A DNA stretch of 54,682 bases from the NCBI GenBank assembly GCA_020342155.1, contig CP070842.1, positions 1,236,594 through 1,291,275 on the forward strand, written 5' to 3'. Origin of the DNA: Dehalococcoidales bacterium. GTDB lineage: Bacteria; Chloroflexota; Dehalococcoidia; Dehalococcoidales; Fen-1064. The notes under the pieces were generated by a model that ran no database searches, was not told where the DNA came from, and was given only the letters and a program-made list of their open reading frames with translations. Of this stretch, positions 18,170 to 21,053 are shown piece after piece; the first letter of the stretch is position 1, and every line of letters starts with the position of its first letter. A program made the position numbers and the translations under genes.

Positions 18170-18197
18170 TTGACAAATAGAATTTTTGTGTTATGCT
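18170..18197 (+). promoter_or_regulatory. Upstream promoter P1 of the surface protein gene or of a small RNA
   Basis: A perfect TTGACA (18170-18175) is followed after 16 bases by TATGCT (18192-18197). Transcription would start near 18204, about 100 bases before the second promoter and 335 bases before the surface protein. Confidence 0.65.
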
Positions 18198-18218: not shown

Positions 18219-18304
18219 GGTATGACCATGTACGAGTACGCAGTCATACCGATAAACAGCGAGTCAAGGCGCGGCGCTTCAGGGAAAGAGCGCCGAGGCT
18301 TGAC
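18219..18304 (+). other. Two hairpins between promoters P1 and P2, candidate small RNA or operator
   Basis: GGTATGAC (18219-18226) pairs with GTCATACC (18243-18250) around 16 bases. A second, longer hairpin is built from GTCAAG (18263-18268) with CTTGAC (18299-18304) outside and CGGCGCT (18272-18278) with AGCGCCG (18289-18295) inside, separated by a symmetric 3-base internal loop. Its right arm contains the -35 box of promoter P2. No coding sequence fits. It could be a short P1 RNA, an attenuator, or a protein-binding site. Confidence 0.5.
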
Positions 18305-18327
18305 AAGTGTTTATGTTATGTTATAAT
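18300..18327 (+). promoter_or_regulatory. Consensus promoter P2 of the surface protein gene
   Basis: TTGACA (18300-18305) and TATAAT (18322-18327), both perfect, are separated by 16 bases. This is the strongest promoter in the window, in keeping with an abundant surface protein. It leaves a leader of about 205 bases. Confidence 0.85.
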
Positions 18328-18337
18328 AAAGGGTTGT

Positions 18338-18539
18338 GTATCCGTAGGTACTACTATGGATAGAAGGATACGCAAATCTTACTAAGGAAGGAGGTAGTGT
18401 ATGGTCAGAGCCTGAAAGGGGAAAGGAATGAACTCATTCCAAAAACAGATTTTTAACAGGCAAACAAGGTTTGTCTCCATGGACGGAGAGATTTGACATA
18501 TATTATGGAGACATTTCAAGGAGGAAAAACTAAAGGTCG
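18338..18539 (+). promoter_or_regulatory. Structured mRNA leader with four-codon mini-ORF
   Basis: The leader holds an inverted repeat GTATCC/GGATAC (18338-18343, 18366-18371). A textbook ribosome-binding site AAGGAGG (18388-18394) then sits six bases before a mini-ORF, ATG-GTC-AGA-GCC-TGA (18401-18415). A hairpin GGAATGA-AC-TCATTCC (18425-18440) follows, then a long-range pair TGTCTCCAT/ATGGAGACA (18472-18480, 18505-18513). The main gene has AAGGAGG 15 bases before its ATG, which is far, and AAAGG only three bases before it. Translation of the mini-ORF may control or stabilise the message. Confidence 0.55.
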
Positions 18540-21053
18540 ATGAAAAAGAAGAAAATATCTAGAATTTTAGGTGTGAGCCTGACTCTGGCACTGCTGTCCA
18601 GCCTGCTGGTGGGTGTTGTCCCGGCTTCGGCAGCCGTTAGTTCGGCGACCGTGAGCGCGGATGACTACCAAATCAGTGCACCCGCGACCTACGACCTGGT
18701 CTTCTCAATCGCGACAGCGTTGCCTGTCACTGGGGACATCATCATAGACTTCCCGGCAGGCTTCGATATCAGCGGCATCCTTGCGGCAGCTGACGACGAC
18801 CTGGACACGGTTGTGACCAATGACCCGGATGACGACGTCAATGTTGCCGGTACTTCCGGTATCGGTACCACGGCGTTCGCGCTCACCAGCTGCACAAGCA
18901 CTGTAAGCGGTGCTGTAGGCACCGGCATGACGCTGACAATTGATGTCCCGCAGGCCATCGGTGTTGGTGCCACCCTGCAGGTGATAATCGGTGACAGCGG
19001 CGCTGTGGGTGGAGGAGGAGAAGTCCTCAATTCCGGCGTCCCGGGTGACTACGTACTCGAGATAAGCACCTCATCCGAGCCTGTCCCTGCAGTGGACTCC
19101 CAGACCTTCACGCTCATACCACCGGTTGTTCCGCCGGCCCCGGGTATCGTTACACTTCATAATGATGCCGACATACCGATGGCAATCTACACCGGCCTCA
19201 GTGCCATCCAGGATGCCATTAACGCCGCTTCCAACGACTGGCTCCTCGATATAGGCGCTGGCACATATGTCGAGAACCCGGATACCATCGGACTAACCGG
19301 TATGAGGTTCCAGGCACAAGTACCCGGCACGGCCATCGTCCGGGGTACCTGGGACATCGATGCTACCGGAGCGTTGCTGACCGGCCTCAACATCGAGGGG
19401 ACAGTAGCTATCGCCGCTACGGGCGATGGTGCTGACATCGTGGACTGCTGGTTCGAGTATGACTCACTCGGCACCGCTGACTTACTCACCGTGGCAAACG
19501 GTGCTACCGGAGTTGATGTAAGTGGTTGTACCTTCGACGTATCCGCTTCACTTGCAACCAATGGTATTAATACCATGGATGCGCTCGACGTGGACGGCTG
19601 CAACTTCACGGTCGGCGCCAGTAATTTTGGCATCGCGTCTAATCCGGGCGCTCCTCCCCAGATACTCGATGTAGCCGACTCCACCTTCACCGGAGCCGGC
19701 AGTGGCCTTGACCTTAACGCTGGTTCCGACACGCTGGTCGGCGGTAGCGGCTTCGACGGCATGTTAACGGGCATCAGCATGTCTGGTGACACGCTCGACG
19801 TGCAGGACTCCACCTTCACCGGCTGCGGAGCTTCCGGTGCTACTGCAGCGCTGCGGCACGGAGCCCTTGACATCCTCAGTGTCGGCGACGCACAGGGTGT
19901 CGTCATCTACGACAACACCTTCAGCGGAAACGTAAACGGTCTTCTGAAGGTTAGTGCAGACGCTGAGCACGCCTTCTTCAAGTTCAACACCTGTGACCTG
20001 GCTGCCGGTTTCGACAACGATGACACGGCTACGCTCGATGCCACCAACAACTGGTACGGTTCGGCCGACGGTCCGGTAGGACTGGTCAATGACCCACCGG
20101 TTAACGTTGACCCGTGGCTGCCTTACCCGCTAACCGGTGCAGTTGTCCAGACCGGCATAGCGGCGGGGCTTGCTAACGAAGTAAATGCCAGCGGCACGGT
20201 CGGTGTCGAGATCTGGAGCACCGGTACCATGGATTGTGTCGGTCTCGGCAACTACGCCGATAACCCGGTACCAGGCCAGCCCTTCCTGGCCGACGTCATC
20301 AGGTGGTTCGAAATCAATGTGGTTGGCCTTGGGGGCATCACCGACGATGTCACAATAACCCTCCATGGTATAACCAATGTTGGGGCGGCCGCCTGGGCCT
20401 GGAGCACCTATATGGACATGTGGGTCCAAGTCGTTGCTGTGGTTGACCTGTTCACGGGCACGGTATCGTTCACACTCGACAATACTACCAGCCCGAGTAA
20501 CGCCAACCTCAACGAGCTGGTGTTCGCCCTCACCGAGCCGGCGGTAGCGCCACTTGGCCTCCCGGCACTCCCCATCAGCCCAGTCCTCGGTGCAGACGAT
20601 GTCGATATTGACCCGTCCTTCACCTGGGGCGCTGTGGCTGGAGCTACAGGCTACGAGTTCCAGATTGCTGTGGAGTCCTCTGTCCCCGGTGTCGACCCGT
20701 ACATCGTTCCGTTCGACTCCAAGAACGTGGCGACCACCGGTTGCAGACTCATCGAAGACCTGGCCTACGACACAACCTACGTCTGGAGAGTAAGGGCTGT
20801 CAGAAACGGCGATGTGGGCCCCTGGCTCAACAGCTTCATCACCACGATGGTAGAACCAGAGGAGCCGGAACCACCGATAGAGATAATTCAGCAGGATCCA
20901 CCTATCATTAACATTCCTGACTGGCCAGATACTATCGTGGAAGAAACGACTCCTGTGATTCCTGACTACCTGCTGTGGGTAGTAATTGGTGTTGCTGCGG
21001 TACTCGTAATCGCCGTGATTGTCCTGATTGTCAGGACCAGAAGGGTAGCCTAG
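18540..21053 (+). CDS. Cell-surface protein with beta-helix region and C-terminal membrane anchor
   Basis: An 837-residue exported protein. A signal peptide (MKKKK followed by a hydrophobic stretch ending about residue 32 at PASA) precedes a beta-rich domain (about 35-195). A region of short repeats with a parallel beta-helix look follows (about 205-510, with VDSQTFTL before it, repeated DSTFTG motifs, and NNWYGSADGP near 503). A second beta domain comes next, then a fibronectin-like module (about 675-780, AGATGYEFQIAVES to TTYVWRVRAV), a proline/glutamate linker, and one transmembrane helix (about 808-830) with an RTRR stop-transfer end. This orientation displays the bulk outside the cell. 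Function is unknown; adhesin or envelope-layer component is likely. The strong promoter suggests high expression. Confidence 0.85.
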   Translation: MKKKKISRILGVSLTLALLSSLLVGVVPASAAVSSATVSADDYQISAPATYDLVFSIATALPVTGDIIIDFPAGFDISGILAAADDDLDTVVTNDPDDDVNVAGTSGIGTTAFALTSCTSTVSGAVGTGMTLTIDVPQAIGVGATLQVIIGDSGAVGGGGEVLNSGVPGDYVLEISTSSEPVPAVDSQTFTLIPPVVPPAPGIVTLHNDADIPMAIYTGLSAIQDAINAASNDWLLDIGAGTYVENPDTIGLTGMRFQAQVPGTAIVRGTWDIDATGALLTGLNIEGTVAIAATGDGADIVDCWFEYDSLGTADLLTVANGATGVDVSGCTFDVSASLATNGINTMDALDVDGCNFTVGASNFGIASNPGAPPQILDVADSTFTGAGSGLDLNAGSDTLVGGSGFDGMLTGISMSGDTLDVQDSTFTGCGASGATAALRHGALDILSVGDAQGVVIYDNTFSGNVNGLLKVSADAEHAFFKFNTCDLAAGFDNDDTATLDATNNWYGSADGPVGLVNDPPVNVDPWLPYPLTGAVVQTGIAAGLANEVNASGTVGVEIWSTGTMDCVGLGNYADNPVPGQPFLADVIRWFEINVVGLGGITDDVTITLHGITNVGAAAWAWSTYMDMWVQVVAVVDLFTGTVSFTLDNTTSPSNANLNELVFALTEPAVAPLGLPALPISPVLGADDVDIDPSFTWGAVAGATGYEFQIAVESSVPGVDPYIVPFDSKNVATTGCRLIEDLAYDTTYVWRVRAVRNGDVGPWLNSFITTMVEPEEPEPPIEIIQQDPPIINIPDWPDTIVEETTPVIPDYLLWVVIGVAAVLVIAVIVLIVRTRRVA

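Follow-up and report, generated by a model that had tools for sequence, protein, structure and literature searches.

Why should the best ribosome-binding site in the leader of a surface-protein gene stand before a reading frame of four codons, and not before the gene itself? The question arises at positions 18,338–18,539 of the window, by which we mean the whole analysed stretch of 54,682 nucleotides from Dehalococcoidales bacterium (contig CP070842.1); all features described below lie on its + strand. The layout given in an earlier note on these letters is present as described. An AAGGAGG at 18388–18394 (SD1) sits 6 nt before the ATG at 18401 of the mini-ORF ATG GTC AGA GCC TGA (MVRA; 18401–18415), and the gene's own AAGGAGG at 18518–18524 (SD2) is separated by 15 nt (AAAAACTAAAGGTCG) from the ATG at 18540. 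Positions 18334–18542 belong to a family of structured 5′ leader RNAs that stand before S-layer-like surface-protein genes across the order.

A leader shared across the order

The stretch first inspected lies inside a larger unit with an extended -10 promoter at its front and the gene's start codon at its end. The main promoter (promoter P2, 18300–18327) reads TTGACA-16-TATAAT with TG before the -10, agrees with the consensus at 12/12 positions and is kept in both sister species. It predicts a transcript start at ~18334, right at a 5′-terminal hairpin, GTGTATCC/GGATACGC (18336–18373), whose pairs are kept with changes in sister species G002 and with one mismatch in sister species G001. SD1 follows, with the order consensus AAAGGAGGTGAT, which complements the 16S 3′ end over 12 nt. 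Three helices, named P1 to P3, come next: the hairpin P1, CCT-GAAA-GGG (18411–18420), which has a GNRA tetraloop and holds the mini-ORF stop; the hairpin P2, GGAATG-AACT-CATTCC (18425–18440); and the helix P3 (18472–18513), formed by TGTCTCCAT (18472–18480) with ATGGAGACA (18505–18513). The leader closes with SD2 and its 15-nt spacer (18518–18539), which ends in a AAAGGTCG box recognised by column conservation.

A second, upstream promoter (promoter P1, TTGACA-16-TATGCT, 18170–18197) is followed by an inverted repeat, GGTATGAC/GTCATACC, at ~18219–18249. This repeat directly behind the upstream promoter mirrors the hairpin directly behind the main one, and both are conserved in the genus. Between the promoters, at 18255–18305, a hairpin GGCGCT/AGCGCC with an outer GTCAAG/CTTGAC overlaps the main promoter's -35 and is possibly an operator or attenuator.

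The leader is better conserved than the protein behind it: its DNA is 91% and 85% identical to that of two sister species, whereas the proteins behind the leader in the same two species are only 42% and 34% identical. Kept in the genus are SD1, a GNRA hairpin of the form CCC-GNRA-GGG, the long-range helix and another hairpin, in which changes compensate each other. The gene in the window encodes an 837-aa S-layer-like secreted protein (18540–21053) with a signal peptide, a weak beta-helix match, a C-terminal TM segment and RTRRVA. Nearly all readable downstream proteins open with a MKKKISKILGVGLTLALLASLL-type signal peptide, whereas their bodies differ, being of beta-helix type in the window and BNR-like in others (L126, L044); what stays constant is therefore the leader together with the signal peptide. 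Replacement of the body behind a constant leader is the likely history, judging from these sequences. In three genomes (1.4–1.5 Mb), the leader precedes a protein that we take to be of the Dehalococcoides S-layer type.

A DNA search first caught the stretch around the gene's start, AAGGAGGAAAAACTAAAGGTCGATG, and the leaders upstream of it were then read. They share one architecture: a promoter, often a 5′ hairpin, AAAGGAGGTGATGCTATGG, P1, P2, P3, SD2 and AAAGGTCG-ATG. A covariance model, R1, built from 17 leaders, finds the leader in 113/156 genomes of the order (E<=0.1); at the stricter E<=1e-4 the matches number ~115. In a set of 400 genomes from the phylum, some of them of the same order, R1 gave few matches outside the order, mostly short and weak. 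The short ones that we inspected (L139, L141, L144) are ordinary gene starts, and outside the order the string AAAGGAGGTGATGCTATGG begins ordinary genes. A search for plasmids found none. The number of copies varies: one genome (G151) carries up to nine leaders (L158, L163, L165, L166, L172, L178, L184, L187, L194) and another (G034) carries three (L046, L146, L147), which suggests that sets of alternative surface proteins share this type of leader.

The comparisons below use 99 leaders, a chosen subset of the matches that is mildly redundant, with an effective number of 88. Across the order, a promoter of at least 10/12 consensus positions lies within 120 nt of SD1 in 64/99 leaders, against 3.5 in shuffles, and the predicted promoters, all of them positioned as consensus matches, would place SD1 ~10–60 nt from the mRNA 5′ end.

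Helices and covariation in the transcript

Several lines of evidence support the fold. First, 86% of the cells in the three helices are paired over the 99 leaders. Double-change cells number 234, where shuffles give 71.5, and the covariation score is 0.353, against 0.162 in the control and 0.03–0.09 when the structure is slid; this alignment was fitted to the structure, and the first alignment, built without it, likewise exceeds its covariation controls. Second, RNAalifold recovers P2 and P3 unaided, and pairs of both helices are among the top scores in an unsupervised scan of all column pairs. Third, double changes occur at 5/5 modelled pairs of P2 and at 10/10 pairs of P3, where 92–93% of cells are paired. 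The long-range pairing TGTCTCCAT/ATGGAGACA, which the earlier note had seen in the window, where it is perfect, is therefore a real covarying helix across the leaders. P3 cells hold 112 G-U against 15 A-C combinations, so the + strand transcript is the selected molecule. Compensatory changes beyond controls and a fixed position before one gene type are the marks of a structured cis-regulatory RNA, and the leader has both.

P1 with its GNRA tetraloop occurs in 56/99 leaders, against 1.3 expected, and all four bases occur at N. Longer stems take its place in some leaders. Long inserted stems of this kind are seen at L016:1293-1500 and L014:4006-4226, and also in L049, L057, L060 and L068; by their sequences, such a stem replacing P1 in several families may be a variable domain of the RNA.

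Competing structures were sought as well. In the window, the 5′ strand of P3 could also pair around the start behind SD1 (AUGG/CCAU), but this pairing does not track the sequence changes in relatives. Neither RNAalifold nor the unsupervised scan of the leaders found a covarying alternative helix, including any that would hide SD2, and no terminator-like site was found in the window leader. No family of Rfam 15 matches the leader above its gathering score, and it appears to be an undescribed structured RNA.

The upstream site, the mini-ORF and the start box

The 16S rRNA of the window's own genome ends in GGATCACCTCCTTTCT. Pairing to this tail is worth -17.2 kcal/mol at SD1 and -11.2 kcal/mol at SD2, and the best site before any of 51 long ORFs in the window reaches -13.8 kcal/mol, weaker than SD1. 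Because its pairing beats both SD2 and the best site of the 51 ORFs, SD1 is not a chance occurrence. The same order holds among relatives, SD1 pairing more strongly than SD2 in 99/99 leaders (median -18.9 versus -9.3 kcal/mol), so that the proposal that the gene does not have the leader's best ribosome-binding site holds throughout. The exact 16S complement at SD1 often extends over 10–14 nt, and its core columns G/T/G are 98–100% conserved, while SD2 is both weaker and more variable. All 99 leaders thus carry an SD-like 16S complement that is upstream of, and separate from, the SD of the gene.

This is one of the properties of a STAB-SD. In Bacillus thuringiensis cry3A, according to the portion of PMC4113751 consulted, a 30S subunit on an SD near the 5′ end has been demonstrated to stop RNase J1, and such a STAB-SD does not direct translation. 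By analogy, we infer, with a probability of about 0.5, that SD1 parks 30S subunits and so protects and loads a very abundant mRNA. Close to the 5′ end, SD1 would bind a 30S subunit or a ribosome in the act of initiating with great strength, and the occupied site, together with the 5′-terminal hairpin, would shield the message from RNase J. With ribosomes kept nearby, the mRNA would gain the long life and heavy translation required for an S-layer. P1–P3 would serve as a spacer leaving SD1 and SD2 separately accessible, and translation of the gene would begin from SD2 together with the GGTCG box. The genome encodes an RNase J (TIGR00649, 634 bits), and we favour parking for stability and loading because of this enzyme and the STAB-SD precedent.

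What of the mini-ORF? The earlier note had made its conservation, and that of its site, decisive. The site is kept across the order, and the ORF is not: MVRA-stop occurs in 2/99 leaders, the window's and one other. Already among sister species, G001 has lost start and stop, and G002 keeps the ATG but has lost the stop and reads on. Behind SD1 the ORF runs from 1 to 47 codons across the 99 leaders, and its frame relative to the P1 hairpin varies. In the window, the TGA lies inside the conserved GNRA hairpin, and selection on the hairpin therefore accounts for that sequence. With length and frame variable and MVRA-stop present in just two leaders, selection acts on ribosome binding and fold, not on the peptide. 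A conserved four-codon peptide is rejected, the peptide in the window being probably incidental; of the claim that the leader's best translation start belongs to four residues, the strength of the site stands, and the peptide as a working part does not. If SD1 parks subunits, the mini-ORF would be a by-product of a start-like codon behind it, with no selected peptide.

Initiation is another matter. A canonical ATG, GTG or TTG stands at start distance behind SD1 in 69/99 leaders, and in the others the codon is mostly a near-cognate ATA, ATT, ATC or CTG, so that some initiation is plausible. A translated leader ORF is accordingly the first alternative to weigh: ribosomes would initiate at SD1, and the site at which they pause or terminate would set P1–P3 folding and (re)initiation at the gene, making the leader a sensor of translation status. 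The first two start-codon columns (A 85%, T 95%) and the use of AAAGGAGGTGATGCTATGG to begin ordinary genes outside the order speak for it, but the third (G 54%) is conserved below the G that follows (81%), and selection would seem from these columns to act only loosely on a start-like codon. An unfixed ORF length and frame, the loss of start and stop in G001 and the lack of a covarying alternative helix also count against it, and we consider this reading doubtful. Parking, for its part, has to accommodate the start or near-cognate codon that usually lies behind SD1, unlike in the untranslated STAB-SD, so true initiation may matter.

Parking alone does not fully explain the P1–P3 fold and the invariant GGTCG box. 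Within the SD2 spacer, columns T, C, G and A are 98–100% conserved over 90+ leaders. The box, TAAAGGTCG-ATG (18529–18542), with its over-long SD spacing, is nearly invariant in >90 leaders and stays although the start codon shifts by two bases in two of them (L052, L053). A pseudoknot of the box was rejected, the unsupervised scan of column pairs giving it no covarying partner, and so was translational coupling through the TAA/TGA around the gene's ATG, whose frame is lost with the two-base insertion in the same two leaders. The box at this spacing would be a further start signal. A two-site relay, in which ribosomes captured by the 12-nt SD1 at the front of the mRNA are passed on by the fold, across P3, to the remote SD2/GGTCG start, is unlikely in our estimate; if true, it would make the leader a bacterial RNA that loads ribosomes with no need of a leader peptide. 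Improbable too is that translation is controlled through P1–P3 and the box, either by a ligand (a riboswitch) or by a regulator that binds there and may be the surface protein itself. The conserved fold of several helices, its GNRA loop and the invariant box adjoining the start codon would suit such a switch, and the consulted part of PMC5102406 places a riboswitch upstream of a Dehalococcoides S-layer gene; however, the leader has no Rfam match, no covarying pairing that would hide SD2 was found, and the loops are variable, with no large invariant pocket. That SD1 is a strong inherited DNA sequence with no function in the leader, as the unconserved four-codon ORF might suggest, is hardly credible in view of compensatory changes, strand-specific wobble pairs and a near-invariant SD1 over ~90 effective sequences.

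A leader of this kind, on the mRNA of surface proteins, is shared by a large part of an order of anaerobes that are important in the environment, and bears on how S-layer mRNAs stay abundant and stable. Here selection has favoured a ribosome-binding site other than the one belonging to the gene, and a much stronger one.

Comparison with known systems

Leader-peptide attenuators of the trp and erm type have a strong SD and a short ORF ahead of leader hairpins, and the leader described here resembles them in this order of parts. It differs in having no conserved peptide, codons, frame or length, and no terminator or covarying alternative helix was found; the selected short ORF and the mutually exclusive helices or terminator that define an attenuator are thus both missing. 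The S-layer/cell-wall gene cwp of Bacillus brevis has tandem translation starts. The present case resembles it in that an S-layer mRNA has a leader of great length, with several promoters and a pair of SD sites, but here the upstream start is out of frame or its ORF ends at once, and the protein is not extended.

In the text seen of PMC5102406 (2016), which cites Rowe et al. 2015, a riboswitch appears upstream of a Dehalococcoides S-layer gene. This is probably the same gene family and region as the leader described here, although that text gives the riboswitch no sequence, structure or Rfam family; since the two may be the same region, our claim to novelty is limited to that extent.

The closest parallel is STAB-SD, as presented in the consulted portion of PMC4113751. 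Both have an SD-like 16S complement far upstream of the gene, its proximity to the 5′ end coming here from predicted promoters, and in both cases the message encodes a protein made in very large amounts by an organism that has RNase J. The complement at SD1 is the longer of the two (up to 12–14 nt), and a start or near-cognate codon usually comes after it. SD1 is also part of a conserved RNA fold with three hairpins and a GGTCG start box, whereas that portion of PMC4113751 describes no such fold for STAB-SD.
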